Part shown: one piece after another, positions 2,769-26,210 of the stretch
Layout: each line of letters starts with the position of its first letter
How positions within the stretch are numbered: the first letter of the stretch is position 1
Source: a virus
Direction: 5' to 3' (one strand)
IMG/VR virus record: IMGVR_UViG_3300020478_000055
Location: 1-26,210 of that record
DNA length: 26,210 nucleotides
Notes under the pieces: model-generated
What the model saw: only the letters and a program-made list of their open reading frames with translations
Told to the model about the DNA's origin: nothing
Databases searched by the model: none
Program-made: the position numbers and the translations under genes

Positions 2769-2945
2769 ATGATATACCTTTTTACTAAGGAAATGCATAA
2801 CGATCATATCAAAATTGACTATATTAGCTCTAATTTCAAGGAATTAGTCGATAAACCAGACAAAAAGGACAATTTATTGCGTGAAGTTGTTGGAGATTAC
2901 CTCCAAGATGCTAAAAGAAAGCAAAATTTGACCGAAAATGGCTAA
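2769..2945 (+). CDS. Small hypothetical protein upstream of gp25 (58 aa)
   Basis: This ORF encodes a charged, mostly helical 58-residue protein (KIDYISSNFKELVDKPDKKD, then NLLREVVGDYLQDAKRKQN). It is the first gene of the baseplate operon and overlaps the gp25 start by 8 bases. The alternative start at 2793 would give a 50-aa protein beginning MHNDHIKID. AAGG at 2787-2790 lies only 2 bases before that ATG, closer than usual. The overlap implies coupled translation with gp25. No family is recognised, and a role as a small assembly helper would be a guess. Confidence 0.6.
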   Translation: MIYLFTKEMHNDHIKIDYISSNFKELVDKPDKKDNLLREVVGDYLQDAKRKQNLTENG

Positions 2946-3354
2946 AGTTGACATCTCACTACAAAAAAGTCAGGCTTTTAAGGATATAAGTCTATCATTT
3001 GTCCGCCATCCTGTGACGGATGACATTGGAGTATTCACAAATGAGTCTGCAATTAAGAGGGCTGTCACAAATTTAGTCCGAACAAGGATTGGTGAGAGGT
3101 TTTTTAACCCATTATTGGGTAGTGAACTAGAAGATTCGTTATTTGAACAACAAGATCCAGATACTGCCATTGTTCTGGAGGATGATATACAACTTTTACT
3201 TGAAAACTTTGAACCTAGAATCTCTGGTTCAAAGGTATCCGTGATTTATCCTTTAGATACCAATGAATTGACGGTAGCTATTAGCTATAATATTGTTGGA
3301 TTATCTTACCCAAGACAAAATATAGAATTTGTTCTTCAATCAACTAGAATATAA
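2938..3354 (+). CDS. gp25: Baseplate wedge subunit gp25
   Basis: The 138-aa protein matches the GPW/gp25 family in length (T4 gp25 is about 132 aa) and layout. An N-terminal stretch with LSFVRHPVTDDIGVFTN leads into helix SAIKRAVTNLVRTRIGERF, then the signature FFNPLLGSELEDSLFE. After a regulatory-looking acidic helix the C-terminal strands are VSVIYPLDTNELTVAISY. gp25 is a conserved core wedge protein that sits next to gp6 and gp53, and the family is thought to help trigger sheath assembly and contraction. It overlaps the upstream small ORF by 8 bases. Its stop overlaps the gp6 start in a TAATG, the usual tight coupling of wedge genes. Confidence 0.93.
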   Translation: MAKVDISLQKSQAFKDISLSFVRHPVTDDIGVFTNESAIKRAVTNLVRTRIGERFFNPLLGSELEDSLFEQQDPDTAIVLEDDIQLLLENFEPRISGSKVSVIYPLDTNELTVAISYNIVGLSYPRQNIEFVLQSTRI

Positions 3355-11200: not shown

Positions 11201-14200
11201 ATCTGATACTGATGTTACTGGAAGAAATAACATAACATTCAAAAATGTTATTCTGAAAAATGAACATAAGGTTATAAGAAGTGATGATAATAACTTTACT
11301 TTCAACTTACTAGAAAAACCATTAGAATCTCAAAAATATATCTCCAGAACAGGTGTAAGTACTATCACATATAGTACAACTTCTTCTACTGCAAGGGGTC
11401 CAGTTTCTCAGACTAAGATCAATTTCCCAGGCAAAGGATATACTGTTTTACCTAAAGTTATTGGTTTTGCTAGTACTCAAGGTCAGGATGCTATTGTTAA
11501 AGTTTCTTCACCAGAAATAGGTCAAATTGACACACTTGAAAGAGTAAAAGATGGATTTGATTATCCAACTGATCCTACTCTATTACCATTCTTAAGTGTT
11601 CCTGCCATTGTTGATATAAGTGGTATTGCTAGAATAGATCAAATCAAAGTTGTTGATGGCGGTAGAAATTATAATCAACCACCTAAACTTACTGTTCGTG
11701 GTAATGATAACGTATCAATTGCCGCACATGTAATTGGTGGATCTGTTGATAGTGTAGAAGTCATTGATAATGCTTATGAATTTAAAGAACCATTAAGCAT
11801 AATTACGACCAATAACTCTAATGGTTATGACATTGATGCTATAACTCATGCAGGAACATCTGTTACTGTTGAATTGTTATTGGATGCACAGTTTAATATT
11901 CCAATAAAAACTGGATTTGCGTCTACTGAGACTAAGTTGCCATTTGCTATTGGTGATAAGGTATTTGTTGAAGGATGTAGATTAAAACCATCATCTTTAG
12001 TTGCAGGAGAAGGTAATTTTAACTCTGCTGATTATGACTATACTTTCTATAGTGTAACTGGTGTAAGTACTGTCAATAATACAATTACCTTTAGTATGAA
12101 TGATGCTCCTGGCATTTCAACTGTTACTTTAGGTTCTTATGATGATGATTTCACTTTAGGTTCCATTGTCAACTACAATGACATGGCTAAGTTCAATATG
12201 ACAATTATTGACGATGCCAAGTATATCTCTGGTGAAAAGGTAACATCTACCAGATTTGAAGGATTTGTTTCTGAAAATGGTTGGAATGGAAATATTGGTC
12301 AACTTAGACTTAGAGATACTATTGGAAAACTGTTGCCTGGAGATACTTTATACGGTCAGGTTTCTAAACTCAGTGGTAATGTAAGAGATGTTAACAGATT
12401 TAGTGTTGACACTACTCTTGGGGTTACTAGAGATAAGATTTCTAAGAATGATATGAATGTTGGTATTCTGAATGATTTCAGTCAGAGATTATCAGATAAC
12501 TTCTATTATCAAAAGTTTGCATATTCTATTAAGAGTAAATTACCACATAACAAGTGGAAAGAGGCTGTAAAATCTATTGTCCATCCATCTGGATTCCTAG
12601 AATTCTCTGATCTTATAGTAGAGAGTAATTCCAAGAAGGATGCTGAAACACTGGATTTGGTATCTGTTGGTATTGCAAAATCGACCAATATGAAGGTCAA
12701 ACCAGCAGACATTAAGATCGATCTCATCTTGAATATTGATAGTGAGATGTATATGGGCAAAAGAGATAATTTTGCCATGGTTACGGAAGACGATCCTCTA
12801 CCAGATGGTTCTGTACAGAGGGTATATTTCCCAGAAGGTAGACCAATTAAGAGTTTTGTTATGAACAAGACTAATAAGGTCTTAAATTTAGATGATATTT
12901 CTAGTGGATTTAATGGTGCTCATGATAGAACTGGAACATTGGTTGGAAGTAAACAGTTCCAATTAACTTCTGGCGGCGTCCCTGCCTTTAAGAAACAATA
13001 TAATTCTGCTGATGGAAATGTTGTTGATCTAGCACTTAACATCATTAGTATCCAGAATCATGATTTCCAGACTGGACAAGCAGTGACATTGGATACTCAA
13101 GGTGGATCTAAAATTGGTATTGCAATTACATCACATACAACAGGTACTAAAGATATCGTTATGGCTGCCACAACATCTGGTATTGGTGGTAGTGCAATGT
13201 TTGAAAATGGATATAACGTTCAAATTCCAGGCCCTGTAACAGGAACAGCTGTTACTTCCTTCCCAATAGTTGTGTATAGGTGGTATGGATTTGGTAATAT
13301 TGATGGTGGATTGCCTGGCATATCAACCAGAGGTTCTGGTGCTAGATTCCAAGTTAAATTTGACTATGATCAAACAACAGGTGTTGCAATATCAACTGCT
13401 GTTGTATTAACTGTTGGTGGATCTGGTTATTTTGTTGGTGACAATGTAAGTATTGCTGGAACTCATTTAGGTGGTGCTACCCCTGCAAATGATCTTACAT
13501 TCCCAGTTACTAAAGTTACTGGTACAAGAACAGGTATTGAGACATCGTATCTTGATGTTCCATCTACAAATGATGGTTCTGGAAGTGGGGCGAGATTTAA
13601 TATTACTAGAGATGGTAATTTAGATGTTACTAATATCGGTGTTACAACTGGTGGAACTGGATATGCTTCTACCAATGTCATATCCATCGCAGGTACATAT
13701 ATTGGTGGATCTACACCAACAGACAACATATTCCTTACTCCTACAGAGTTGGGTACTGATGTTATGCCTGATGAATTGTTTATCCAAAAGGTTGATGATC
13801 TTAAGTTCAGAGTTGCTGGATTATCCACATCATTGCCATTTAATTTCGTTGGATTAGGAACAGGAACTCATCTCCTTAAAGTTCAGGATCCAACTAAGAA
13901 TGCTTTGATTATGATTGACAACATAATTCAAACTCCTATCAAGAATAAGAAGTTAAATATAACAGTGTCAAATGCTCTTGGCGCTGGTGATCAGGGTGTC
14001 ACAATTTCTGCTGGTATTGGATCATTATCTAAAGGAGATATTGTCAAAGTTAATAGTGAATATCTTAAAGTTAAACAGATTGGTGACACTACATTTGTTC
14101 AAGATAGAAAGGCTGTCCCACAAAAAGTGGTAGATAACAATTTCTATTATGATACTAACAGAATGAACTCAAATGTGACTTCTGCTGATACTACATTGGT

Positions 14201-14228
14201 AAGTCACGATGACAACCCTCCATATTAA
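5229..14228 (+). CDS. Giant baseplate/virion structural protein (2999 aa)
   Basis: This gene begins on the base after the gp6 stop, so it is very likely translationally coupled. Residues 1-285 form a non-repetitive domain (VSHLIESQIPEFLNQESPLF; IDNEVITYT...CSRGFSG; YQILFKLLYGEDIELIKP). I associate this with the protein following gp6 in T4-like marine phages, annotated variously as gp7-like or VrlC-like. The rest is a beta-rich mosaic: about a dozen G-x-G-Y elements (residues 745-2830), H-x-F/L-x-x-G modules near 7743, 8097, 10542 and 10710, and a YHYH-like domain (1248-1352). A conserved-looking block starts near residue 2425 (NFYYQKFAYSIKS, then VHPSGF), and a tandem pair lies near the C-terminus. 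T4 gp7 is only about 1032 aa. It probably lies at the wedge or baseplate periphery. The structural role is well supported; identity with gp7 is not. Confidence 0.85.
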   Translation: MTDIKRVKVSHLIESQIPEFLNQESPLFGAFLNQYYQSQEHQSGVVDLANNLPEYRKIGAFNNETLIPATTLTLSCLAGDTSIEVTSTTGWPDTYGLLKIDNEVITYTSKTATTFDGCSRGFSGIDQISKEDAAEFLNFAQTSAKAHIQGATVINLSNLFLQTFFTKFKTEFLPGFENRSFISGTSVTNVLTRAKDFYMSKGTDASYQILFKLLYGEDIELIKPIERTLVPSDNVYFKTKHVLVENLFGGQPLETVGNFLYQDVAGIGTVSASIYNVEYRPINQQDFYEVSLDSTSFDGTFQVPGKTKALELTDANSDTLVVDSTVGFGQSGTLLVKPRAGANFLNLRYTDKTVNQFLGVTGISTSLVFGADILENKLAYAYAGYGQTSRLDFRLVNVIDQVDTSKSTNMQLGDSLKLLSFGKDMGESAKFNNWIYNIPSSHSIATLNQVNVNTYRITLFDSCVFYIDEILKLKNQNQESVDVTIKQIEYASTNVSKVYSNTIVVQTSGTVPTGADTITKTVTKASHNSNYFAGVDSFPVGIQNSYLDHDEKFFYVASSGLPNYPIFATDNKVWVKSSSVEVTDGFGTPLLGGGYTYTIKSEDPAANTPLNHNYVTGDKIYWDNTTNSGISTGIYFITTINQTEFYLSFSGSDVFAKKYIALRTNTTGQYIYKSGWENKTLKNQKILRKYPFIKEKTLFDDPNKREVNNKAVGLMANGVELFPPTVFDEQIFHGNITSIKVTNPGKDYDVITGPPLVINDQQGSGAVGHANISGSFREVKLITPGIGYQEKPKITVSGGNGSGAVLESNLVKGRIIANFKADGTSVNTTDETVTFQERHNFEVGEGVVYDARGNTPIVNVVSGSTYFVGVENEKRIKLYNTPEEAKIGINTVNLGNVSFGFHKFTSVNAKNTITKIYVKESGSGYSNKKIIIQARPVNGDTQSGISTSDNYILAYDHNFDNGEIVEYSTDGTVANGLSTTTQYAVKKIDSNRFRLCDVGVSTLRDLTNYDKNKTVVIKSLGSGKHTIKYPPIVVNVESLSAIGSTTIIKPDISPLVLGSIESVYLEEGGIGYGCTNIMDFHRRPDVGISTVVYQALLKPIIIDGSIVDVQILASGQGYREDSDIIVYSPTGDFADIRPIITNNRITGVSILDGGVGYASSDTTLDLQNRGKSAKFIANVKEWKINQVNKNENIISVEDSILTKPSTNPEYQLQTIGMYPPQKLRYQLGDNIDSGNLETPNATHSPVLGYAYDGNPIYGPYGYQNAVGGAIIRLSSGYILDTSLRSGLRPPGFAFGYFVNDYVFDNSGDLDEHGGRYCVTPQFPDGTYAYFYSVDVDSSGVAKPKFPYLIGGSFKDTPIEENFVTFFNQDIDLASRKLTRNISPYYLTYGNSDYELIDDVKDALKQEFEVRKTENAGITSVTIFARGDGYKVDDPLTLDNRGTDGTGASIVVSEILGKDVESVEIGVSTFSGTELRKDKGLIIGITTVPHEIASGETIVLSGIDTSQFTEFNGPQKVTVIGRTVGLATFLDNVTNTGVSTHIYVTDTRGFEPSDHIGIGTETFLVTNIDEQFSRLFVNRENFVGAAMTHAAGEFNVILKPKKFSFPVGNSTVTQFTFENYTTYFNPQQTVGVGSTGTHYDIPLTGLSTTATQTIENRFVPQQRIYIKDHTFFTGQNLTYNMGIGATSIVWAKTSAGATSGVGTVVLADGDVWAINFEPNYIGLATVGFPTTGDAIWFYTPASNSGFAHSLTTNYPKVTAKAERFYGKVGVSTAHGLLTGDKITLDALPKSQESISFRYDPVIAKVTTAKVGFGLTSFSSDLTQINIANEDLQSGDKVVYYDSGNTITGLENNETYFVLREDTESIKLCKYKSDVVTSNPVAITSVTESQGGNKSYLAKINPPLEFTTGNTITFDVSDNSLLDMRLDFFEDITFNSRLDVYGSSTSGFNITRNGISGNANANVVIRTDIEWPNKTFYNLTPVVPSDARKTYGSSDTDVTGRNNITFKNVILKNEHKVIRSDDNNFTFNLLEKPLESQKYISRTGVSTITYSTTSSTARGPVSQTKINFPGKGYTVLPKVIGFASTQGQDAIVKVSSPEIGQIDTLERVKDGFDYPTDPTLLPFLSVPAIVDISGIARIDQIKVVDGGRNYNQPPKLTVRGNDNVSIAAHVIGGSVDSVEVIDNAYEFKEPLSIITTNNSNGYDIDAITHAGTSVTVELLLDAQFNIPIKTGFASTETKLPFAIGDKVFVEGCRLKPSSLVAGEGNFNSADYDYTFYSVTGVSTVNNTITFSMNDAPGISTVTLGSYDDDFTLGSIVNYNDMAKFNMTIIDDAKYISGEKVTSTRFEGFVSENGWNGNIGQLRLRDTIGKLLPGDTLYGQVSKLSGNVRDVNRFSVDTTLGVTRDKISKNDMNVGILNDFSQRLSDNFYYQKFAYSIKSKLPHNKWKEAVKSIVHPSGFLEFSDLIVESNSKKDAETLDLVSVGIAKSTNMKVKPADIKIDLILNIDSEMYMGKRDNFAMVTEDDPLPDGSVQRVYFPEGRPIKSFVMNKTNKVLNLDDISSGFNGAHDRTGTLVGSKQFQLTSGGVPAFKKQYNSADGNVVDLALNIISIQNHDFQTGQAVTLDTQGGSKIGIAITSHTTGTKDIVMAATTSGIGGSAMFENGYNVQIPGPVTGTAVTSFPIVVYRWYGFGNIDGGLPGISTRGSGARFQVKFDYDQTTGVAISTAVVLTVGGSGYFVGDNVSIAGTHLGGATPANDLTFPVTKVTGTRTGIETSYLDVPSTNDGSGSGARFNITRDGNLDVTNIGVTTGGTGYASTNVISIAGTYIGGSTPTDNIFLTPTELGTDVMPDELFIQKVDDLKFRVAGLSTSLPFNFVGLGTGTHLLKVQDPTKNALIMIDNIIQTPIKNKKLNITVSNALGAGDQGVTISAGIGSLSKGDIVKVNSEYLKVKQIGDTTFVQDRKAVPQKVVDNNFYYDTNRMNSNVTSADTTLVSHDDNPPY
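8970..9284 (+). other. YHYH-like domain inside the giant protein
   Basis: Residues 1248-1352 read G-Y-A-Y-D-G-N-P-I-Y-G-P-Y-G, then LDEHGGRYCVTPQFPDGTYA, then FPYLIGG. This resembles the YHYH domain (DG-x-PIYGP, GR, Y-H-Y-H, FPY-x-G). The family-naming Y-H-Y-H stretch is Y-A-Y-F-Y here (residues 1327-1331), so its histidines are missing while the surrounding scaffold is kept. The assignment is by motif memory and needs a profile search. Confidence 0.55.
13330..13740 (+). repeat. Tandem pair of a GSGAR...GxGY...SIAGTxxGG module
   Basis: Two consecutive copies of a roughly 80-residue module occur near the C-terminus of the 2999-aa protein. The first has GSGARFQVKF, then GGSGYFVGDNVSIAGTHLGG. 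The second has GSGARFNITR, then GGTGYASTNVISIAGTYIGG. Both end in a -TP- segment. The protein copies align well while many codons differ, so the duplication is not recent. Confidence 0.75.
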
Positions 14229-14257: not shown

Positions 14258-15280
14258 ATGTCTAAACAGGGAATTAGTACTGGTTCTGCTCCGAACGACG
14301 GCACGGGTGATACCCTATTGGCAGGAACTATAAAAATTAATAGTAATTTTAGTGAAATATACGAAACTTTTGGAGACGGTGCTAACCTGTTGAGTTTTGT
14401 TTCTTATGCAACTACGGCTGGTTATTCTACTAACTGTGGTATTGCAACAACATCGATTGCAGCGGGTATTGCGAAGAGTGTCGCAGATGATATAAATGTC
14501 AATACAACTGGTGTTGTAACATCAAGTTATGCTGATGTTGGTAAGATAACTATTCAACAGCCAGGTGCAATTACGGATGGGCCTATTGAGGTTGGTTATG
14601 CAACCACCATGTTTAGGATCAAAGCTGATGGTATGGTTGGTATCGGCACATCACTGCCTACCTCACAGTTACAAGTTGCATCATTCTCAAACGAAAGACC
14701 TACTATATGGGCTATTGCAAAGGGTAATGCACATGGATTGAGAGTATCCGATCAAAATGTTACCGATGGAAAGTCATTTGTTGTTGATAAAAATGCATAT
14801 ACTGGAATAGGTTCTACTGCTCCAACTTGTAGACTAGATGTTCAGGGTGATGTTTTAGTCAGTGGTACTAGTACTTTAACTGATCAAGTAAACTTTAATG
14901 CAGATATTACAGAGAAGGTAGTAGGTAACTTTAGTGATAATCTCACTGTAAGTGCAGGTGGTACATTTACTGTTGATGTAAATCAGGGATCAGTTGTTCT
15001 AGGCGGACTTACAACTTCTGTTACTACATGGGATTTCACCAATGTTAGTGGTGCAAACAGTAAGGCAACAACTATTACTCTTATCAATAGATCTGGAATT
15101 GGTTATACTTACGGAGATTCTGTAAATGTCAATGGTGCTCCAGTTGCATCTGGTGTTAGGTGGGTTGGTGGTAATCCTCCGCCTGCAACCGCAAATGATG
15201 ATATATTAACTTTTAGTATTATCAGGGACAGTACTGGTGTTACTAGAGTTTACTGCAGTAGTTCCATTAACATAATATAG
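14258..15280 (+). CDS. Fibre-like virion structural protein (340 aa)
   Basis: The N-terminus GISTGSAPNDGTGDTLLAG followed by KINSNFSEIYETFGD is a motif seen at the start of many T4-like phage fibre and baseplate-attached proteins. Central segments MVGIGTSLPTSQLQV and YTGIGSTAPTCRLDVQGD look like the VGIGT-S-P-x-x-x-LDV repeats of trimeric tail fibres. The C-terminal third is beta-rich: TVSAGGTFTVDVNQGSVVL, then GIGYTYGDSVNVNGA, then FSIIRDSTGVTRVY. Together these suggest a trimeric short fibre or spike, probably attached to the neighbouring giant proteins. It has its own late promoter. The length is close to T4 gp8 (334 aa), but I see no sequence reason to call it gp8. Its G-x-G-Y element is shared with both giants. 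Confidence 0.8.
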   Translation: MSKQGISTGSAPNDGTGDTLLAGTIKINSNFSEIYETFGDGANLLSFVSYATTAGYSTNCGIATTSIAAGIAKSVADDINVNTTGVVTSSYADVGKITIQQPGAITDGPIEVGYATTMFRIKADGMVGIGTSLPTSQLQVASFSNERPTIWAIAKGNAHGLRVSDQNVTDGKSFVVDKNAYTGIGSTAPTCRLDVQGDVLVSGTSTLTDQVNFNADITEKVVGNFSDNLTVSAGGTFTVDVNQGSVVLGGLTTSVTTWDFTNVSGANSKATTITLINRSGIGYTYGDSVNVNGAPVASGVRWVGGNPPPATANDDILTFSIIRDSTGVTRVYCSSSINII

Positions 15281-15294: not shown

Positions 15295-18200
15295 ATGCCA
15301 AGGACTACGCCTGGACAAGGAGCTTTACTAAGACCAACATTTAACTCCACATATGGAGTTAGTGATATAGAGGTCTTAGCTGGTGGAGCTGGATACGCAA
15401 AAACAGATCCTCCAAAGATAGAAATAGAAGGTACAACATCTCCATTAACAGAGGGAGTATTCTTCCCTATTATTAGTGGTGTTGGAACCATATCTGATGT
15501 CGTAATATTTAAAGCTGGACTTGGATATTATCCAGTTTTTAGTACATCTACACAATCACAGGTTGTTGTAGAGAGGGGTGCTTTTGGTACTATAGCAACT
15601 GATCATAGTTCTGCTGGTATTGCATATTCTGTATTTTCTGGTGATTATAATATTGTAGATGATAATATATTTTTCAGCGATGCTCCTTACGGAAAAACTG
15701 GGCCAGTTGGTCTTTTAACTGGATCTTCCTTTTCTGGTAGATTATTTTCTAGAAAATTAGATCCATTTGATGTTGCAGATAAAAATACAATTTTAGATGA
15801 TATATCATTAGAATTTACTGGTGTTGCTGGAACTCAATTTACTTTAACAGAGAACCTTGGATTAGTTACTTCAGTTTATAATAATGTTAATACTGGCGTA
15901 GATATTAATAATAATCCATTTATTTTAATCAATAATGTAGTACAAACGCCAGGATTGGATTTTGAAATTGTTGATAATTCTTCAAACAAGATTAATTTCT
16001 TGAGTGGAGTACCAAGGGCGGGAAGAATCAATAAAGTAGGACTTCAAACTGGTTCTGGATATTACTTACCCACTAAAGCTTCTGCTAGAGTAGGTGTAGG
16101 ATCAACTGGAACTATTGAGTTTCTACAATTAGAAGGAAAGGGACAAGGATATAATTCTGTTCCAGAAATAAGTATTAGATCATCTCAAGGTACTGGTGCT
16201 GCTTTAACTGCATATCTTGGAACTTCATCAGGAAGTGCAGTTGCTATTAGTACTGCAGATTACAACCATATTGCTGGTATCTGTACATTTGTTACTGGTG
16301 CAACATCTCATGGATTTGAAGAAGGAGATAGAATTAGAATAACAGGAGCAGGGTTTACTTTTACTCCTGTTTCACCTAATAGGAATATTGCTGTATTTGG
16401 ATATGATTATGTAACTGGAATTGCAACTGTTCAAGTAAGTGGTGGGCATTATATTGGTACTGCTAGTAATCAAAGTAGAAGTTTAGTTATTAAACAAGTA
16501 CAAGTTTATAATGGTATAACAACTTATTTGTGGAGAGAAGACGCATATCCAATCGTTGATATCCCTGATGCCAACAACGTTTCTGTCGATGCTGGTATTA
16601 GTACACAACCTTTACAATATGTTAGTGGTGGATTGGTTCAAGCTGGTGTTGATACTGCCATTATGGATGGTAGGAATGTAATTGGTTTTGATGTATTATC
16701 TGGTACAACTACTAACACTTTTAGAGCCTTTATTGGTGTATCTACTTTTGCACACCAATATGTTAGTGGAGGAGTAATAAACAGAGCAGAGGCAGGAATA
16801 GTTACTAGTTTTGCTATTCTGGATGGTGGAACTGGATATTATGCACCAAGAACGATTTCATATATTGATGGAACCCCTGTAAATGGTATCACTACCCTTA
16901 CTGCTTATGGTAATCAGGCTGGAGGTAGTGTTGCAATATCTTCTGTAGCGTATGACGATATATCTGGAGTTGCAACAATTACTTCAGGTAGTGGACATGG
17001 ATTAACAACTTCCAGTGTTATTAAGTTGGTGGGAATTGCCTTTAGTACCAGTGATGGTGATATTACATTCCCATCTGATGCTCAGAGATATTATGGGATT
17101 AAGAGTGTTGTTAATGCAAATAACTTCACCATTAATATTGGTGCTGCAATGACAACATCAGGAATACACACTGGACATATAGGTGTTGGTTCCTTTATAC
17201 CATATCAAGGTCATGGATTAGAAACGGATGATTTTGTTAATGTAACTGGTATTGCAGTAACATTCTCAAGTGCTCCAGCTGTTAAAGTTGGTGATGTTGA
17301 GTATGATGAAACTAGTGGTATTGCTACAATTAGTACTAGACAAAAACACAATTTAACAGAAGATGATTGTGTTATTCTTTCTGGCATTTCTTTCACTTGT
17401 AATTACGATCCAGCACTAGGAATATCAAGTGCTGAATATGATAACACTACAGGTGTTATGACAGTAACAACTTCTGCTGCACACGGTTATAAAGTGGGTA
17501 AGGATGTTGTATTTACTGGTTTAGGATTTACATGTCAGTTGGACAATGGTGCTCAGGAACATTATTATCCAAGAAGTCGTTCTACTGCATTTGACACTGG
17601 AATACCTATTGTCAGTACTGCTGCCACAACTGTAACTGTTGATGTTGGATTTGCTCCATCAAAAGATCAATTTACACATACTTTTGATAAGGCATTATCT
17701 GGTGCCTTAATTACTGGTGGTGATTATAAACATAAGTTCCTTCGTGCAGAAGAAGGTGCATTATTGACTGGTGGATACTTTACACATAAGTTTGTAGGTG
17801 CTACTGCAGATTCTACATTTAGTGGAGGTAATTACGAACACAAATTTGTTAGTTCTGAAGATAAGACTATAAAAATCGGTGGTAATTATGCTCATACATT
17901 CGTTCCATCAAAAACGATTGCTGACTGTATCGATATAGTTGGTGCTGGTACAACTACACCGACAAATGCTGATTATAATGCATCTACTGGTGCATTAGTT
18001 CTAACAGTTCCTGGCCACGGATTATCAGGGCCAACATCTCATACAATAACAACTGCAAGATATAATGCTCTTGTTGGTATATTAACCATAACTGTTCCTG
18101 GCCATAACTTTGCTAATGGTGATCAAATTAAAATTGATAACGATGCCATTGGATTTAAGTGTTCAATGGATGGATATGCTTCTACACACACTTATCCAAG

Positions 18201-21200
18201 ATCTACCGATCCAGTAAGTGATCAATGGATACCTATATCAAATAAAACAACAAATACTTTTGAAGTCTTTGTTGGTATGAGTACCATTGTTAATTACAAT
18301 GTTACTGATGCCTTATACACACCTTCTGTAGGTGTGATGACCATGACTATTGGTAATCATGATTTATTGGCAGGTTCTAGTATTAAAATTAAACCATCTT
18401 CACTTGGATTTAAGTGTGAGATGGATGGTAAGACATCAACGAAATATTATCCCCGTTCAACAGACCCCGTATATGATACTGCAGTTCCTATAACAGGCAT
18501 AGGAACTACCACTATTACTGTGCAGGTAGGTATTTCAACAATAGTTAAGTACAACATTAGATTTGCAGATTATACCCCTGCAGTTGGTATTTTGACTGTT
18601 TCTCTTGATAGACTTCATGGATTTACTGCTGGAGAGAGTATTAAATTTAAAGAAGGTTCTATCGTCTTTAAATGTGCTAGGGATGCTTTCCAAACTAATC
18701 ATTTCTATCCAAGACCACAAGATCCTTTCTATAACACTTCAGTTCCTATTGTTAGTTGTGCTGGTACTATCTTTACCTGTAATGTTGGTGTAACAACTCT
18801 TGGAAACTTCGCACACTTATTTGTTCCAAATCAAGGTGTTGCAGTTGAGGGTGTAATTTCTGGTGGTGATTATGGTCATACATTTAGTGGAGTGGGAACC
18901 GATGCCGTAATCACTGGTGGTGTTTATGACCATACTTTTGAAAGTTCAGTTTCTGGCGGACTTAAGAGACCTTCAACTAAGGTTGAGATTTCTAAAGGTG
19001 CATTAACATTCAAATGTGCAAAAGATAATTATGCTAGTGAACATGCATATCCTCGTACAACAGACCCAGCATATAACACAGAGTTGGGAATTGTTGATAC
19101 CACATCAAATACTTTTGAAGTTAGAGTTGGCGTATCTACAGTTGAAGAACGTGCAATATCAAACGCTGGTTATAACCCTGCCACAGGAGATTTAACATTA
19201 ACAGTTGGAACTGGTCATTCTTACACTTCAGCAACCTCACACACGATTACAGACGCAGTATATAATCCATCCACAGGTGTGATGGAACCTACAATAGCAA
19301 ATCATGGGTTCTTAAGTGGAGATTATATTAAATTTGATAATGGAGCAATCACATTCACTTGTGAAGAAGATAATAATGCAACTAACCATCCATATCCTCG
19401 TCCATCCGATCCATATAGTAATCGATGGTTATCAATTTACAATGTAGGAGTTAATACATTCTCTGTATTTGTTGGTGTATCTACAAACACTACTGCACAT
19501 ACATTTGCCAGTGGTGCTGCTGGTGCTCTTAAGAAAGCAACTGATACTATTGGAATTAACACATCATCAATAGTGATGACATGTTTTAGGGATGAACATA
19601 AGACGAAACATGCTTATCCTCGTCCTGACGATCCTGTTGGTGGTAATAAGAGTATTGGTATTGGCGCCACAACTGATGATACTATTACACTCAATGTTGG
19701 TGTAACAACCATTAAGAATTATTCAATAACAACTGCTGCATATACAGCAAGCACTGGTATTGTAACCGTATTCTCTAACCGCCATGGATTGAGTGGTGCA
19801 TTAACACAGACTGTCAATTTTGCGAAGTATAATGCTTCTGTTGGTATTATGACAGTTACCACTGATGGTAGTCATAATTTAACAACTGGAGATAGAGTTC
19901 AATTTGAAAGAAACTCTATTAATTTCAGATGTATGATGGATGGTAGAAAGACCATCAAGAGTTATCCAAGGGCATCAGATCCAGTAGATCAACAATGGTT
20001 AGCTGTCGAGACTGTTGATGATACTAACTTTAAGGTTCAGGTAGGTGTATCTACTATTGTTACTCATAGTCCTACAAGTGGATCTTATGATCCATTTACA
20101 GGATTGATGACTGTAGATATTGGTGAACATTATCTTAAGAAAGGAAATGCAGTAAAACTTAAGACTAGAGCCTTTAAGTTTACTTGTGGTCAAGATAATC
20201 ACGCTACAAATCACTTCTATCCTAGAGCAACTTCTATCAGTGGCCCAGATCCTGCTTACAATACTGCAGTTAAGATTACTGGTACAACTGATACAACAAT
20301 TACACTAGATGTTGGTAAGTCTTCTAACCAATCTGATCATATCTTTATTTCTGCATCCGCAGATTCAGTTATTTCTGGTGGTGATTATGTTCATACATTT
20401 GAAAATGCGATACCCAATAATATAAAAATTGCTAGAGATACTATTGGTTTAACAACTAATTCTTACACCTTTAGGTGTTCTCAAGACAATTATGGATCTG
20501 ATCACACATATCCAAGATCAGGTTATGCTCATACATTTGTAAGTGCAACAGCTGGTGCTGCATTTACTGGTGGATCATATGCACATAATTTTGTAAGTGC
20601 TACTGCAGAATCCATTTATGTTACTCAAAGTGGTGCTAAATTAACACCAACAAATGCTGCTTACAATGCCGAAACAGGCAACATGGTTTTGACATTTGGA
20701 TCTAATCATGGTTTGGTTGCAGGTACTAATACAGTTGGTATTGCAACTAATTCAATTACTCTAACTTGTGATAGAGATAATCACGCTACAAATCATTCAT
20801 ATCCAAGGTCTACAGATCCAGTTCACGGTCTTACAAACGTTGCAATTGGTGCTACTACACTTGACACAATTACGGTTAATGTAGGTGTTAGTCAGATTGT
20901 ATCTAAGAATATAACTGCTGCAACTTATGATCCTGAAGCAGGATCAATGGAAATAACCATTGCCAATCATGGACTTTTAGTTGGTCAACCAATTGGTATT
21001 GTTACCAATTCAATGACATTTACATGTGCGAGAGATCTACATGCAACTAATCACACATATCCTCGTAATACTGATCCGTTCCACAATAAGAATATCTCTA
21101 TTGGGGCAACTACTGCTAATACAATAACACTATTTGTTGGTAAGTCAAATACTGGAGATCCACTGAATAATAAGGAAATTGGTATATTAACTTCAACAGC

Positions 21201-24200
21201 TGATACCTTTACTTTCAATGTTGGTGTAACGACTCAGGTTAGATACAACATAACCACATCTAGTTACACTCCTTCTACTGGTATTGTCACATTTACAACT
21301 GACAGTTCTCATGGATTAACTACTGCCACAAGTGTTGGTATTGCTACTAATTCATTAATATTCTCTTGTGACATGGATCAACATGCCACAGAACATGCAT
21401 ATCCAAGACCAGGCTATGCACATACAATGGTCAATGAACAAGGGACTCATACGTTTGTTAGCGGAACTGCAAATGGTCTTACTGCAAGTAATGGTGCAAG
21501 TGGAAACTTCACCGCTGCATCTGGTACAACCTACGATCCTTTGACTGGAAACTTAGTATTAACTATTGGATCTCATAGTTTAACCACAAGTAATAAATTA
21601 ACAATTGCTAATGGCGCAGTAACATTCACTTGTGATGTGGATAATCATGCAACTAACCATGCATATCCAAGAGCAACTGATCCTGCTTCTGGAGTGGCAC
21701 TGTCTATTACTGCTGTAACTGGAACAACTGTTACTGTTAATGTTGGTGCAGTCAGAAGTGGTTCTGCCGTTATAACTGGTGGAGATTATGCACACACTTA
21801 TGTAAGTTCTCTTGCTGGTGTTGCATTTACTGGTGGTAATTACAAACATAATTTTGTCAGTGCTGCTGCAGATTCAATTCATGTTGGTTCTTGGACTGGC
21901 ACAAAATTAACTCCTAATAATGTTTCTTATAATGCCGTTACAGGTAATATGGTGTTGAACTTTGCTTCTGCACACGGATTAATTGCAGGTAGTAATACAG
22001 TTGGAATTGCAACAGGTGGTATTGTTTTAACTTGTGAAAGAGATAATCATGAAACTAATCATGCATATCCAAGAGCTTCTGACCCTGTACATGGTCTTAC
22101 AAACATAGCGATTGGAGCAACTACTGTCAATACAATAACTGTTAATGTTGGTGTTTCTACAATCGTTTCTAGTGGTATTACAACCGCCACATATACTCCA
22201 TCTACAGGAGATATTGAGTTAACAGTTGGAGCTGGACATGGGTTACTTGCACAATCTCAAACAACTGTTACTAATGCGGATTATAACCCATATGCAGGTA
22301 TTATGACTTGTACTGTGGCTGGTCATGGATGGGAAGTGGGTGAATACGTTAAGTTTGATACCAATTCAATCACATTTACATGTGGAATTGATACTCATGC
22401 TACAAACCATTCATATCCTCGTCCAAGTGATCCATTCCACAATACTTGGTTACCAATTTTAGAAACAACTACCAATACATTCTCAGTTAAGGTACTTAAG
22501 GAAACTCCTTCTACTAGTGTTGGTGTTCACACCTTCTCAGGGTCTCAATCTAATGGTCTTAAGAAGGCAAATAATACTGTTGGTATTCATACTCGTTCTA
22601 TTACAATGACATGTGCTAGAGATGCACATGGATCGAATCATGCATATCCTCGTGACGCTGATCCAATCAATAACAAACAGGTTGGAATTAAGGCAGTAAC
22701 AGGTACAACAATAACAATTAACTGTGGTATTTCTACTCTTGTAACTTATGGTGTTACTGATGCGAATTACAATGATGTAAATGGTGAATTAGAATTAACA
22801 ATTGGTTCTGGTCATGGATTTGTTGTAAATGACAATGCTAACGTTGGTATTCAAACATCTGGTTTGACATTTACTTGTGCTTTGGACAAACATGCTTCAA
22901 ACCACACTTATCCTCGTACAAGTGATCCTATTCACAATAAGATTGTTTCTATTGGATCGACAAGTGATACTACAATTACATTAAATTGTGGTGCTGCAAA
23001 TATTGACGATCCAGCTCACTCTGCTGGACTATTACCAACGAAGATAACATCAAATACACTTAGTTTGAATGTTGGAGTAACAACTCAAGTTAAATTTGAT
23101 GTTGTACATGCTGACTACCAAGAGTCTGTTGGTGTGATGACTATGGCGATTGGTGCTCATAGTTTACAGATGGTTCAGACTGTTAAACTTGCAAATGAGG
23201 CAATATACTTCAAGTGTTCTAGAGATGGTAATGCAACTTCACTTGGATATCCTAAAGGTGGAGATCCTTGGTATAATGGAACACTAGTTAACAGGGTTAT
23301 TGATGCCAATAACATTGAGGTTAATGTTGGTGTAAGTACTGTTCCAACACATTACAATTCTGGTGGTACAGTTCAGGGTGTTATTATTGCTCCTAGAGAA
23401 TTTAATAATTCAGCAAGTGGCGTTGATTATGCTTCTGGTGGTACATTTGTTGATAAAATTATTGACGACTACAATTATGTTGTTAATGTTGGTATTTCTA
23501 CTGTAGATCACAATTACAATAGAGGTGGACTTTCACAACAAGGTAAGAGAGTTGCTGCTTCTATTGAGAAAGGATTCTCTGGATTCGATGTTATTGAAAA
23601 ATTAGATGCCGCATCTTTCCGAGTAGATGCTGGATTAACTACAGAAAGGGCTCTATTTAAGAGAGGTGGTAGAGTTGATAAACCAATATTTGTTGATATT
23701 GCACAACCTGATCCATATTTTAATAGAAAACTTGAATATATTTCTGGAGCAAGTGGTCTTGGAACAGATGCTAAAGTAGATTTCCGTATTAACGTTGATG
23801 GTCAGATTGGAGAGTTTGATATTCTTGAAGAAGGAACTGCCTTTAAAGTTGATGAAGAATTGACTGTTGCTGGTATTGTTACTGATCCTAGAGTGGGTGT
23901 TTTAACTGAATTCCAGTTAACAGTTACAGAATTGGAAAATGATACTTTCTCAGGATTCTATCCTGGCCAGTTCATCCTATTTGATGATATTTCTGCTTTC
24001 TTCAACGGAAAACGTAAGAAATTTACTCTATCTGTAACAACTGCTGGTACTACAGAGATCTTAAGTCTTAAGACTCTGCCTGGTAGTGATATGGATATTA
24101 CAAACAATATCTTTATCTACATTAATGATATTCTACAAACTCCACAATCTTCTTACGTTTTCAAAGGTAGTAGAGTTATCTTTAGTGAGGCACCAAAACC

Positions 24201-26210
24201 AAACTCTAAGTGTTCTGTATTCTACTTTAGAGGATCTAAGAGAGACGTTGAGACTGTTGATCCAGTTCAGTCATTGAAGCCTGGTGATGTTATACAGATT
24301 AAGGAGAATAGAAATGATCCACTTGATATTGATCAATTCCAAAGAACAAGTAAGAGAATCGTTGCTTCTGACCTATTAGAAACATTTACATATGACAGTA
24401 TTGGAATTAATACTGCTCAGGATGCTGAAAGACCATTAACTTGGGTTAAACAAAGACAGGATCAGATTCTTTCTGGTGTATTGATACCAAAATCAAGACC
24501 TAGTTTGAAGAGTAAAGTTCTTCCTACAACTAGAATTATCAAGAATGTAGGAAACTTAGATGACAAGATTTATGTGAATAATGCTTACCCAGTATTCACA
24601 AATATTGATAAACTAATTCAATCTGAAAGAAATATACAAGTATTCGATGATGGTGAAGTATCACCAGGCATTGTTACGTCTGTAGTATCAACATCCTCAA
24701 GTATATCTTCATTGACTATTGGTTATGCTGGAACAGGATATAGTAATCTTTCTAGTCCTAATGTTGCCATATCAAGTGCATTAATTAAACGTAAGGATCC
24801 TATTAAGGAATGGAGATTTGATGGAATTAGTGGTATTACTCAAACAGTTGACTTCAAGGCTATAACACAACAAGAACCAATTGTTGCTGTTGGTTCAAGT
24901 AGTTACTATATGAATACTAAGAGTGGTACATTCTGGGAAAGAGGACAAATTGGATTTGGTGGAACTATCACCTTTAATGGTGTTGGTATGGGATTCAGTT
25001 ATGCCAATCAGGGTAGTTTAAATGTCATGGCAGTTGGTGATTATGCTTCTATGGCTAGAGCAGTTTCTGTTGGTAACAGTATTAGTGCTTGGACTGAAAT
25101 AGATCTTAAAGAAGAAAGAACAATTCCTGCCATTAATCAAACAGGTGTATTTGACAGTACTTATGAAGGTAATCTCCAAGATGTTCTTTGGGAAGGAACT
25201 AGAAATATATGGGTTGCTGTTGGTGCTGCTGGATCTATCTTTACTGCTGTTGGTCTTACAACTGCAGAGGCATTCAGTCAATATTCAGGAACTCTACAAC
25301 AGTTAAACTCAGTATGTTACGGTCAGTCTGAATTTATTGCAGTTGGTAATGGTGGTGCTGTAATTGCATCTAATGACGGAACTGGTTGGGGTGATAAGAT
25401 CAGTAATACTGCATATAATATTAATGATATCATCTATGATGGAAATAGATTCATATATGTTGGTGATAATGGTACTATTGGTATTTCTACTAATAAGAAC
25501 TACTGGCAACCTTGGAGTCAACAGTTACCTGCTGGAACAGTTCACCCTGCCACATTTGACTTTAAGACAATTAAATTTATTGATAACATTTACATTGGAA
25601 TTAGTACTGTTGGTGATATGTACTATTCATTTGACCTTGCAAACTGGAATAAGAGGGATATAAATCATCCTAACCAGATAAGTGATATTGTTGATACAGC
25701 ATTTGGTGATTTCGCAAGTAGTAGAATTCTAGCAGTAGGATCCGCAACTACACACTTCTATGCAGATCCAGTAATTAATGCTGCTACTGCTACCGCATCT
25801 GTAACTGCTGGTGTTATAACCAGTATTATTGTAGATGATGGTGGATTTGGTTATGAGATCGGCAGTAATCCACCAGTTCTTATTGAAACAGATAAGACTA
25901 AGAAAGAAGACATCTTTGCAGTTAATTCTCAAGGTGATTTTGGTGATATTGTAGGAATAAATACTTGGTTGCCAGGCAGTGGTGCTAGACTTCCACAATT
26001 AGCGTTTACTCTGAAATCTCAATATAATGATAATACTAATTTGGGATATGGTTATTCTTCACTAAATGCTCTTGGTGTTGAATATTCTGGACTACAAAAA
26101 GGTGATTACTTCACCATCTATGATAGTTCTTTGGTTGTTGGACATGCATTAACTGGTATTACAACTTCCAGTGGTGCAAATGAAGTTGTTGGTATGGTAA
26201 CTGCTGGTGA
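15295..26210 (+). CDS. Second giant repeat-rich structural protein, 3'-truncated (at least 3638 aa)
   Basis: Reading from the ATG at 15295 I find no in-frame stop to the window end. The N-terminus (PRTTPGQGALLRPTFNSTYG) leads into G-x-G-Y elements (GGAGYAKTDPPKI, GLGYYPVF, GSGYYLPT, GQGYNSVP), with an NNVVQTP domain (ILINNVVQTPGLDFEI) near residue 210. Residues about 736-2666 are the YPR repeat array interleaved with 18-residue H-x-F repeats. A non-repetitive block follows at residues 2883-3136 (GQFILFDDISAFFNGKRKKF; IYINDILQTP; VFYFRGS; RPLTWVKQR), which I associate with large cyanophage virion proteins. Then comes a likely beta-propeller (about 3195-3488) and another G-x-G-Y element. It is probably a huge fibre or baseplate-peripheral protein. 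Cleavage into smaller virion parts is possible but not visible. The true end lies outside the window. Confidence 0.88.
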   Translation, partial: MPRTTPGQGALLRPTFNSTYGVSDIEVLAGGAGYAKTDPPKIEIEGTTSPLTEGVFFPIISGVGTISDVVIFKAGLGYYPVFSTSTQSQVVVERGAFGTIATDHSSAGIAYSVFSGDYNIVDDNIFFSDAPYGKTGPVGLLTGSSFSGRLFSRKLDPFDVADKNTILDDISLEFTGVAGTQFTLTENLGLVTSVYNNVNTGVDINNNPFILINNVVQTPGLDFEIVDNSSNKINFLSGVPRAGRINKVGLQTGSGYYLPTKASARVGVGSTGTIEFLQLEGKGQGYNSVPEISIRSSQGTGAALTAYLGTSSGSAVAISTADYNHIAGICTFVTGATSHGFEEGDRIRITGAGFTFTPVSPNRNIAVFGYDYVTGIATVQVSGGHYIGTASNQSRSLVIKQVQVYNGITTYLWREDAYPIVDIPDANNVSVDAGISTQPLQYVSGGLVQAGVDTAIMDGRNVIGFDVLSGTTTNTFRAFIGVSTFAHQYVSGGVINRAEAGIVTSFAILDGGTGYYAPRTISYIDGTPVNGITTLTAYGNQAGGSVAISSVAYDDISGVATITSGSGHGLTTSSVIKLVGIAFSTSDGDITFPSDAQRYYGIKSVVNANNFTINIGAAMTTSGIHTGHIGVGSFIPYQGHGLETDDFVNVTGIAVTFSSAPAVKVGDVEYDETSGIATISTRQKHNLTEDDCVILSGISFTCNYDPALGISSAEYDNTTGVMTVTTSAAHGYKVGKDVVFTGLGFTCQLDNGAQEHYYPRSRSTAFDTGIPIVSTAATTVTVDVGFAPSKDQFTHTFDKALSGALITGGDYKHKFLRAEEGALLTGGYFTHKFVGATADSTFSGGNYEHKFVSSEDKTIKIGGNYAHTFVPSKTIADCIDIVGAGTTTPTNADYNASTGALVLTVPGHGLSGPTSHTITTARYNALVGILTITVPGHNFANGDQIKIDNDAIGFKCSMDGYASTHTYPRSTDPVSDQWIPISNKTTNTFEVFVGMSTIVNYNVTDALYTPSVGVMTMTIGNHDLLAGSSIKIKPSSLGFKCEMDGKTSTKYYPRSTDPVYDTAVPITGIGTTTITVQVGISTIVKYNIRFADYTPAVGILTVSLDRLHGFTAGESIKFKEGSIVFKCARDAFQTNHFYPRPQDPFYNTSVPIVSCAGTIFTCNVGVTTLGNFAHLFVPNQGVAVEGVISGGDYGHTFSGVGTDAVITGGVYDHTFESSVSGGLKRPSTKVEISKGALTFKCAKDNYASEHAYPRTTDPAYNTELGIVDTTSNTFEVRVGVSTVEERAISNAGYNPATGDLTLTVGTGHSYTSATSHTITDAVYNPSTGVMEPTIANHGFLSGDYIKFDNGAITFTCEEDNNATNHPYPRPSDPYSNRWLSIYNVGVNTFSVFVGVSTNTTAHTFASGAAGALKKATDTIGINTSSIVMTCFRDEHKTKHAYPRPDDPVGGNKSIGIGATTDDTITLNVGVTTIKNYSITTAAYTASTGIVTVFSNRHGLSGALTQTVNFAKYNASVGIMTVTTDGSHNLTTGDRVQFERNSINFRCMMDGRKTIKSYPRASDPVDQQWLAVETVDDTNFKVQVGVSTIVTHSPTSGSYDPFTGLMTVDIGEHYLKKGNAVKLKTRAFKFTCGQDNHATNHFYPRATSISGPDPAYNTAVKITGTTDTTITLDVGKSSNQSDHIFISASADSVISGGDYVHTFENAIPNNIKIARDTIGLTTNSYTFRCSQDNYGSDHTYPRSGYAHTFVSATAGAAFTGGSYAHNFVSATAESIYVTQSGAKLTPTNAAYNAETGNMVLTFGSNHGLVAGTNTVGIATNSITLTCDRDNHATNHSYPRSTDPVHGLTNVAIGATTLDTITVNVGVSQIVSKNITAATYDPEAGSMEITIANHGLLVGQPIGIVTNSMTFTCARDLHATNHTYPRNTDPFHNKNISIGATTANTITLFVGKSNTGDPLNNKEIGILTSTADTFTFNVGVTTQVRYNITTSSYTPSTGIVTFTTDSSHGLTTATSVGIATNSLIFSCDMDQHATEHAYPRPGYAHTMVNEQGTHTFVSGTANGLTASNGASGNFTAASGTTYDPLTGNLVLTIGSHSLTTSNKLTIANGAVTFTCDVDNHATNHAYPRATDPASGVALSITAVTGTTVTVNVGAVRSGSAVITGGDYAHTYVSSLAGVAFTGGNYKHNFVSAAADSIHVGSWTGTKLTPNNVSYNAVTGNMVLNFASAHGLIAGSNTVGIATGGIVLTCERDNHETNHAYPRASDPVHGLTNIAIGATTVNTITVNVGVSTIVSSGITTATYTPSTGDIELTVGAGHGLLAQSQTTVTNADYNPYAGIMTCTVAGHGWEVGEYVKFDTNSITFTCGIDTHATNHSYPRPSDPFHNTWLPILETTTNTFSVKVLKETPSTSVGVHTFSGSQSNGLKKANNTVGIHTRSITMTCARDAHGSNHAYPRDADPINNKQVGIKAVTGTTITINCGISTLVTYGVTDANYNDVNGELELTIGSGHGFVVNDNANVGIQTSGLTFTCALDKHASNHTYPRTSDPIHNKIVSIGSTSDTTITLNCGAANIDDPAHSAGLLPTKITSNTLSLNVGVTTQVKFDVVHADYQESVGVMTMAIGAHSLQMVQTVKLANEAIYFKCSRDGNATSLGYPKGGDPWYNGTLVNRVIDANNIEVNVGVSTVPTHYNSGGTVQGVIIAPREFNNSASGVDYASGGTFVDKIIDDYNYVVNVGISTVDHNYNRGGLSQQGKRVAASIEKGFSGFDVIEKLDAASFRVDAGLTTERALFKRGGRVDKPIFVDIAQPDPYFNRKLEYISGASGLGTDAKVDFRINVDGQIGEFDILEEGTAFKVDEELTVAGIVTDPRVGVLTEFQLTVTELENDTFSGFYPGQFILFDDISAFFNGKRKKFTLSVTTAGTTEILSLKTLPGSDMDITNNIFIYINDILQTPQSSYVFKGSRVIFSEAPKPNSKCSVFYFRGSKRDVETVDPVQSLKPGDVIQIKENRNDPLDIDQFQRTSKRIVASDLLETFTYDSIGINTAQDAERPLTWVKQRQDQILSGVLIPKSRPSLKSKVLPTTRIIKNVGNLDDKIYVNNAYPVFTNIDKLIQSERNIQVFDDGEVSPGIVTSVVSTSSSISSLTIGYAGTGYSNLSSPNVAISSALIKRKDPIKEWRFDGISGITQTVDFKAITQQEPIVAVGSSSYYMNTKSGTFWERGQIGFGGTITFNGVGMGFSYANQGSLNVMAVGDYASMARAVSVGNSISAWTEIDLKEERTIPAINQTGVFDSTYEGNLQDVLWEGTRNIWVAVGAAGSIFTAVGLTTAEAFSQYSGTLQQLNSVCYGQSEFIAVGNGGAVIASNDGTGWGDKISNTAYNINDIIYDGNRFIYVGDNGTIGISTNKNYWQPWSQQLPAGTVHPATFDFKTIKFIDNIYIGISTVGDMYYSFDLANWNKRDINHPNQISDIVDTAFGDFASSRILAVGSATTHFYADPVINAATATASVTAGVITSIIVDDGGFGYEIGSNPPVLIETDKTKKEDIFAVNSQGDFGDIVGINTWLPGSGARLPQLAFTLKSQYNDNTNLGYGYSSLNALGVEYSGLQKGDYFTIYDSSLVVGHALTGITTSSGANEVVGMVTAG
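17671..17913 (+). repeat. 18-residue H-x-F repeat, cluster of five
   Basis: Five copies of a motif ending H-x-F are spaced by exactly 54 bases: FTHTF, DYKHKF, FTHKF, NYEHKF and NYAHTF, with their Phe codons at 17683, 17737, 17791, 17845 and 17899. The consensus is (T/S)-G-G-x-Y-x-H-x-F-V-x-A. A strict 18-residue period fits a rung-like beta structure, but that is inference. Confidence 0.85.
18808..18945 (+). repeat. 18-residue H-x-F repeat, second cluster
   Basis: NFAHLF, SGGDYGHTF and TGGVYDHTF have Phe codons at 18820, 18883 and 18937. The last two are exactly 54 bases apart and the first step is 63. The cluster sits between the fourth and fifth YPR motifs. Confidence 0.75.
20335..20610 (+). 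repeat. 18-residue H-x-F repeats flanking the tenth YPR motif
   Basis: A degenerate SDHIF (Phe 20344) and SGGDYVHTF (20398) are 54 bases apart. After the tenth YPR motif, SGYAHTF (20536) and TGGSYAHNF (20590) are again 54 bases apart. The YPR motif at 20476 interrupts this repeat and merges directly into it. Confidence 0.75.
21411..21460 (+). repeat. Half-period H-x-F pair after the thirteenth YPR motif
   Basis: PGYAHTM follows directly on YPR, and GTHTF follows 27 bases later, which is half the usual 54-base period (codons at 21427 and 21454). This looks like a shortened copy. Confidence 0.6.
21770..21860 (+). repeat. 18-residue H-x-F repeat, final cluster
   Basis: TGGDYAHTY (last codon 21799) and TGGNYKHNF (21853) are 54 bases apart. 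Together with the following sequence this block is a diverged duplicate of the region starting near 20521. Confidence 0.75.
24870..25770 (+). other. Probable seven-bladed beta-propeller domain
   Basis: Seven successive blade-like repeats share a core of hydrophobic-A-V-G, G-x-(I/M), and S-x(4-6)-W: IVAVGSSSYYMNTKSGTFW, VMAVGDYASMARAVSVG, WVAVGAAGSIFTAVG, FIAVGNGGAVIASNDGTGW, FIYVGDNGTIGISTNKNYW, YIGISTVGDMYYSFDLANW and ILAVGSATTHFYAD. Blades 4 to 6 are the clearest. The pattern resembles Ycf48/BNR-like propellers. It is likely a ligand- or surface-binding head or a docking platform in the virion. Confidence 0.65.

Follow-up and report, generated by a model that had tools for sequence, protein, structure and literature searches.

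The complete IMG/VR record IMGVR_UViG_3300020478_000055 (26,210 bases, referred to here as the window), itself a fragment of a T4-like cyanophage, encodes a giant protein of 3,638 amino acids (aa) at 15295-26208 on the + strand, open at its 3' end where the contig stops, in which a module of ~85 aa with a C-x2-D-x7-Y-P core is repeated 19 times. The reading that suits the module best is that of an FCCH/endosialidase β-barrel in a cyanophage version, amplified in a baseplate wedge protein. In the explanation that we favor, at a probability of roughly 0.6, each unit would be an all-β barrel of the FCCH or endosialidase-β-barrel type to which cyanophages added an extra hairpin, C-x2-D-x3-T/S-x-H/K-x-Y-P-R-x2-D-P, and the role of this motif would be structural, neither catalytic nor metal-binding. 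The barrels would be strung into a long segment of variable length that separates the conserved halves of the wedge protein at the gp7 position. This segment would probably project from the baseplate as a stalk or fiber, reaching the cell surface and perhaps binding to it.

The array and its motif

The 19 copies of the core motif have Cys codons running from 17533 to 23215, within the 17500-23290 interval for which the original prediction had claimed a 19-copy array, and the array is real: when the residues of the protein were shuffled 5,000 times, matches averaged 0.0012 and no shuffle held more than one. The motif Cys residues are aa 747, 956, 1041, 1127, 1241, 1356, 1430, 1546, 1631, and 1728 (copies 1 to 10) and aa 1825, 1911, 2025, 2113, 2247, 2363, 2440, 2528, and 2641 (copies 11 to 19), giving a motif spacing of 74 to 134 aa, with one interval of 209. 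The outer limits of the array of predicted barrel modules (17431-23337, + strand) were placed by hand from the unit alignment. Cys, Asp, Tyr, and Pro are present in all 19 copies, as had been stated at the outset, a constancy that is partly circular because the copies were found by those very letters. The longer motif as first written, C-x2-D-x3-T-x-H-x-YPR-x2-DP, held less well, with a strict match in eight copies; Arg is found in 18 of the 19 (Lys in one), His in 16 (Lys in two, Leu in one), the Thr position is Thr in 12, Ser in six, and Gln in one, and the second Asp and second Pro are each found in 15. Tandem Repeats Finder returned no DNA tandem repeats in the window, suggesting that the units were duplicated long ago or have diverged strongly, with the protein pattern retained.

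Other repeated elements accompany the modules. A second repeat of ~18 aa (GG-x-Y/F-x-H-x-F...) was counted with one pattern 10 times in the window protein and five times in the corresponding protein of Synechococcus phage S-SSM7; four of the 10 are interleaved with modules at 17716-17901 (+), and the repeat also occurs elsewhere in the array. An abbreviated unit (FTC-NYD..., without YPR) is found at aa 699-716 (17389-17442), and the array seems to contain further half-modules of ~30 aa, which may account for spacings of 114 to 116 aa.

The constancy of the motif was examined across relatives using a unit profile in which the nine motif columns were masked. This profile gave 1,136 matches, 880 of them distinct, and after dropping 254 that did not span the motif we retained 626 distinct units from the window, S-SSM7, and viral contigs, a sample in which some bias remains because the training units were picked by the motif. 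Among them, Cys was conserved in 625, the first Asp in 588, Tyr in 606, Pro in 607, Arg in 591, the second Asp in 604, and the second Pro in 547. The His position was His in 491 units, Lys in 95, and another residue in 40.

Predicted fold of the module

Each unit is predicted with high confidence to form one compact β-barrel. A single module folded alone (aa 997-1084; 18283-18546, +), which carries Lys at the His position and was aligned with 149 diverse relatives, gave an AlphaFold2 model with a predicted local distance difference test score (pLDDT) of 94.3 and a predicted template modeling score (pTM) of 0.80, and with strands at residues 9-13, 18-22, 33-35, 41-44, 53-56, 67-73, and 77-81. 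Cys 45 directly follows strand 41-44 and leads into a three-residue helical turn (46-48), and Lys 54 and Tyr 56 both lie on strand 53-56. Three consecutive modules (aa 916-1178; 18040-18828, +), a segment length whose folding had been proposed with the original prediction, were modeled at pLDDT 88.3 and pTM 0.54, so that the module itself appears sure and the arrangement of domains uncertain.

Placing conservation on these strands suggests how the motif might be built. Positional entropy was 1.76, 1.15, and 0.29 bits at offsets 7, 9, and 11 vs. 3.01 and 2.82 bits at offsets 8 and 10, and an L-x-F-x-C pattern leads into the motif; this alternation would put Leu, Phe, and Cys on one side of their strand and Thr/Ser, His/Lys, and Tyr on one side of the next. 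Cys would thus end one strand and point its side chain the same way as the core hydrophobics, and the Thr/Ser, His/Lys, and Tyr residues would share one face of the following strand, a proximity of Cys, Asp, and His that we infer from secondary structure and the alternation of conservation. Joined by both Asp residues and the Arg, they may form a packed polar staple that fixes the hairpin on the barrel.

A similar barrel seems to be present in other phage tail proteins. When the unit was re-aligned with VIA, the head-tail chain of phage FCWL1 gave a Z of 6.4 (root mean square deviation [rmsd] 2.3, 66 aligned residues), followed by UBA6 (Z 6.1, rmsd 2.1, 64 aligned), UBA1 (Z 6.0, 2.2, 65), a phage T1 tail chain (Z 5.9, 2.5, 66), residues 423-492 of the K1F endosialidase (Z 5.9, 2.3, 68), and the phi92 endosialidase (Z 5.8, 2.4, 68). 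Among predicted viral structures, the S-SSM7 protein was the best match to the unit model (TM 0.93), and a protein of S-PRM1 annotated as 'Endosialidase' also matched (E 0.032). At the sequence level, a profile of six endosialidase barrels matched that of the unit (82% probability, P 1.1e-5) across 25 columns, the last of them three residues before the Cys. The Pfam family E1_FCCH (PF16190) matched the window protein at 1.2e-6 and that of contig L021 at 1.6e-8, both values being summed over repeats, and exceeded its cutoff in L021 (35.0 bits). When single units were compared with Pfam in 150 scans (E ≤ 0.1), the families met included Cthe_2159 (nine), End_beta_barrel (eight), E1_FCCH (six), and Lipid_bd (five); most of the 24 families met were represented by one member each, as chance would give over that many scans, and were set aside. 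The whole window protein had no match at E ≤ 1 among PDB sequences, and a weak PDB profile match to an iota-carbonic anhydrase (0.0032), in which no stretch passed alone, was taken as chance.

Taken together, assignment of the unit to the E1-FCCH/endosialidase barrel type is moderately supported. The VIA alignments to these chains span 64 to 68 of the unit's 88 residues and so leave ~20 unaligned, which the aligner does not list by residue; with the sequence match ending close to the Cys, this suggests that the C-x2-D...Y-P-R-x2-D-P hairpin may be an insertion into the barrel.

Relatives and distribution

The nearest named phage DNA was that of S-SSM7 (two records; host Synechococcus WH8109) and S-SSM6a, with 75% identity over 78% of a 12-kb query. 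Searched with a single unit, a set of 50,697 phage records yielded 277 that matched at E ≤ 0.01, and with a 290-aa piece 157 at 1e-5, all of them named Synechococcus, Prochlorococcus, Cyanophage, or Marine. For the search of contigs a 14-unit set was too diverse as a query, and the six close units used instead favored recovery of NHATNHxYP-like units. In viral contigs 141 stretches were confirmed, of which the best 80, falling into 75 loci, were retained. In total, 80 open reading frames (ORFs) from viral contigs, the window, S-SSM7, and contig L085, many of the contigs being near-duplicates or cut, held 810 motif copies, with up to 28 in one ORF. Of four pattern matches in genome contigs, three were confirmed, in two loci. 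One of these, L085, is a 189-kb contig from the Prochlorococcus single-cell assembly AG-418-C09 that encodes an array protein with seven copies in its ORF; it is perhaps a phage contig, co-sorted or infecting, in which case it would link phage and host. The other, a Yoonia contig (L086), was rejected since its match covered 13 residues and the motif count found no copy.

The original prediction could place the repeat in no named family, and a lack of any family was not supported: the module is already collected in PHROGs and is widespread and well conserved. The window protein matches PHROG 5342 (tail fiber, 4.2e-185), 701 (virion structural protein, 3.5e-181), and 1276 (unknown function, 1.1e-174; matching at 21 places in the window), E-values that are inflated by summing over repeats, up to 20 stretches. 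We found no description of this repeat, nor of its fold or mechanism, in the literature searched, a result that is not proof of absence, as some searches were aimed at other points and most subscription journals lay outside them.

Evolution of the array

The array gains or loses whole units. Orthologs in contigs L010, L011, L012, and L014 (85 to 86% identical) have 18 units, that in L016 (87%) has 17, and those in L018 and L023 (62 to 63%) have 16. Compared with the 18-unit orthologs, the additional unit of the window corresponds to an indel that comprises a single module and a spacer (~aa 2060-2156; 21472-21762, +), and compared with S-SSM7 the window protein contains additional blocks at aa 1742-1952 and 2039-2569. 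The array is under purifying selection that is slightly weaker than in the flanks, the ratio of nonsynonymous to synonymous rates (dN/dS) being 0.18 to 0.23 in the array vs. 0.14 to 0.17 in the flanks across three comparisons (L011, L014, and S-SSM7).

In alignments, the window frame ends opposite residue 3,532 in L010, whose frame has 3,632 aa, and opposite residue 2,901 in the 3,001-aa S-SSM7 protein, indicating that the window protein is short of ~100 C-terminal residues.

Position in the baseplate block and probable place in the virion

Based on Pfam and PHROG profiles, the array protein lies downstream of a block of baseplate genes, all on the + strand: a gp25-type wedge subunit (2938-3354; phrog_261), a gp6-type wedge subunit (3354-5228; phrog_219), a second giant wedge protein of 2,999 aa (5229-14228; YHYH domain, 2.3e-19; phrog_2885, baseplate wedge subunit), and, directly upstream of the array protein, a T4 gp9/gp10-type connector (14258-15280; Pfam T4_gp9_10_N, 3.8e-8). 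S-SSM7 also encodes gp25 and gp6 and has the gene order gp25, gp6, giant, connector, array protein, and gp8. The array protein therefore holds the gp7 position between connector and gp8, the latter being seen in S-SSM7, as the window stops before it. Upstream of the baseplate genes are a 2-oxoglutarate (2OG)-Fe(II) oxygenase-like protein (468-1142; phrog_81) and a phrog_1574 protein with weak glycosyltransferase matches (1542-2300).

The flanks of the array further connect the protein to wedge proteins. A conserved C-side wedge domain (aa 2797-3159; 23683-24771, +) matched 384 of the 50,697 phage records, all named Synechococcus, Prochlorococcus, cyanophage, or marine, and among the matches listed it was annotated as baseplate wedge initiator, gp7, structural protein, or hypothetical protein. 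On the N side, aa 86-363 (15550-16383, +) weakly matched the wedge protein of phage S-SCSM1 (25% identity, 2e-7), a match absent from the 1e-6 listing against a larger set. The S-SCSM1 protein, with 4,120 aa and zero units, carries the N-side flank at residues 3206-3494 and the C-side domain at 3492-3855; the two are nearly adjacent, as if the array had been placed between adjoining parts. ORFs of 17 relatives matched both flanks, and in 11 of these the units between the flank matches numbered 18, 16, 12, 12, 6, 6, 5, 3, 3, 1, and 0, with L045 and L046 looking like near-duplicates. The 2,999-aa YHYH protein aligned to S-SCSM1 residues 2-2629 at 30% identity, so that the S-SCSM1 protein looks split into two genes in the window and in S-SSM7.

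In S-SCSM1, a 'virion protein' note is attached to SSCSM1_26, which contains the unit, and to SSCSM1_15, which contains the C-side domain; for the window protein the connection is by homology only. PMC9602691 reports 45 proteins in the S-SCSM1 virion by mass spectrometry and has NMNAT among those it names, and the NMNAT of S-SCSM1 carries the same 'virion protein' note.

Weighing the explanation and its rivals

Several observations weigh against the explanation favored here. The arrangement between modules is uncertain, the unit folded alone carries Lys rather than His, and the proposed side-chain contacts rest on strand assignment and conservation, not on atomic distances. All VIA Z values are below 8, in the range that the tool calls common among unrelated folds, and the unrelated barrel of riboflavin synthase reached nearly as high (Z 5.2). 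Foldseek alone found no match in the PDB at E ≤ 0.001 (best 0.38 for the unit and 0.086 for three units), and for the three-unit model its alignments were long and poor, with a TM by query length of at most 0.24 among the 50 listed, which was the reason for folding one unit alone. E1_FCCH fell short of its curated cutoff of 29.5 bits in the window protein (28.9), L010 (24.7), and S-SSM7 (19.1), no single stretch passed alone in any protein, the modeled unit had no Pfam hit, the record of L027 had no E1_FCCH hit, and the same loose search was positive in four of 14 control genomes. The K1F barrel alone, without relatives, matched the unit profile with 37% probability. Finally, PMC7029224 reports that cyano- and pelagimyophages lack T4 gp7 and that another protein, VrlC, takes its role; 'gp7' would thus be a positional name only.

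The conserved residues also invite other explanations. Metal binding, which the original prediction had raised, would have each unit hold a metal, e.g., iron, through its Cys, Asp, and His, as has been proposed for HxH motifs in marine phage fibers (PMC11705849). The near-invariant Cys is consistent with such a site, as are a further His that 217 of the 626 units carry at offset 5 and the retention of the first Asp in all 491 His units vs. 79 of the 95 Lys units, although the last would also suit a dyad. However, the His is replaced in more than one unit in five, and exchange with Lys points away from a metal ligand and to a cation next to the conserved Asp; a Cys kept in 625 units while His is Lys in 95 is easier to reconcile with a structural network than with an obligate metal site. 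The 3,638 residues of the window protein contain no HxH, and an HxH iron-binding tail fiber was set aside on that ground. We therefore regard metal binding as very improbable, and the conserved residues as most likely structural, in line with the earlier suggestion of a structural role per module; a modular tail or baseplate protein is likewise supported. Scarcely more probable is a redox or crosslinking role, in which the Cys would form disulfides between neighboring modules or chains and stiffen the fiber outside the cell. The motif Cys was the sole Cys in 709 of 806 unit stretches of 80 aa, which leaves no disulfide partner inside those stretches and led us to discard a disulfide within a module; that isolation and the retention of Cys would both suit bonds between modules, but the L-x-F-x-C strand suggests a Cys facing the core, and pairwise disulfides within a chain would leave one unit unpaired in odd arrays, e.g., of 17 or 19.

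A polyvalent glycan-binding adhesin is compatible with the structural staple and more specific, and we consider it possible if rather unlikely. Each barrel would offer a low-affinity sugar site, by analogy with the K1F endosialidase β-barrel that binds polysialic acid, and copy number, which does differ among close relatives, would tune avidity for the cyanobacterial surface. Single units weakly matched the carbohydrate-binding Cthe_2159 (best 0.0021) and End_beta_barrel (best 0.016), but no sugar-binding residues were identified, the K1F positions G730, N732, and G742 fall outside the match range, and the hallmark residues look like core rather than surface. Nor did the array change faster in the close ortholog L011 (dN 0.08 vs. 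0.11 on the N side and 0.08 on the C side), although its dN/dS there was slightly higher (0.20 vs. 0.14 to 0.16) and S-SSM7 diverged more in the array (dN 0.29 vs. 0.15 to 0.17 in the flanks, with dS near or above 1). A doubtful extension of this idea is a cyanophage-specific adhesive fiber with up to 28 FCCH-type barrels per chain, in which the inserted C-D-T-H-Y-P-R-D-P hairpin and its buried thiol network would be a surface-binding or mechanically tuned site and copy number a dial for picocyanobacterial attachment. With the structural reading of the motif, the array may act as a spacer, an adhesin, or both.

Implications

To our knowledge, how cyanophage baseplates reach and recognize picocyanobacteria is poorly understood. 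A nearly invariant wedge-protein module with a confident single-domain model provides a concrete unit for expression, structure, and binding tests, and orthologs with 12, 16, 17, 18, and 19 units form a natural copy-number series for probing the effect of array length. The module would also unify proteins now labeled 'gp7', 'structural', 'tail fiber', or 'hypothetical'. According to PMC3037559, ocean data show T4-like myoviruses to rank with the most abundant ones.

Comparison with known systems

The block as a whole looks like a cyanophage-specific elaboration of a known barrel type. Its closest counterpart, S-SSM7 SSSM7_103 (YP_004324156.1, 'gp7, baseplate wedge subunit'), is a collinear ortholog with flanks 77% identical and the same gene neighbors, whose 12 units align with window units and number seven fewer than the 19 of the window. 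The three PHROGs have profiles that match the window protein and supply no fold or mechanism. The E1_FCCH domain of ubiquitin-activating enzymes has a similar predicted barrel (Z of ~5 to 6) and weak profile matches; it is, however, a domain of cellular enzymes, the unit's hairpin lies outside the matched profile positions 3-25, and the likeness of the barrels implies nothing about ubiquitin. The long tail fiber of S-CREM2 is said to resemble that of K1F (PMC10665884). In the window protein, without its ~100 C-terminal residues, no catalytic β-propeller was found, Pfam (E ≤ 1) giving E1_FCCH and a weak KTSC only. The S-SCSM1 'long tail fiber protein' SSCSM1_26 contains C-x2-D-x7-Y-P once and, among the matches listed, matches the masked unit model five times (weakest 0.011), but differs in its length of 1,478 aa, in its gene position, and in that its single copy lacks both His and YPR. 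The β-barrels of the K1F and phi92 endosialidases (End_beta_barrel), which resemble the predicted fold at Z 5.8 to 5.9 over 68 residues, share an 'H-G-L-x2-G-D' segment with the unit within the 82% profile match, whereas the six aligned endosialidase barrels are without the C-D-H-YPR-DP hairpin that distinguishes the cyanophage module.

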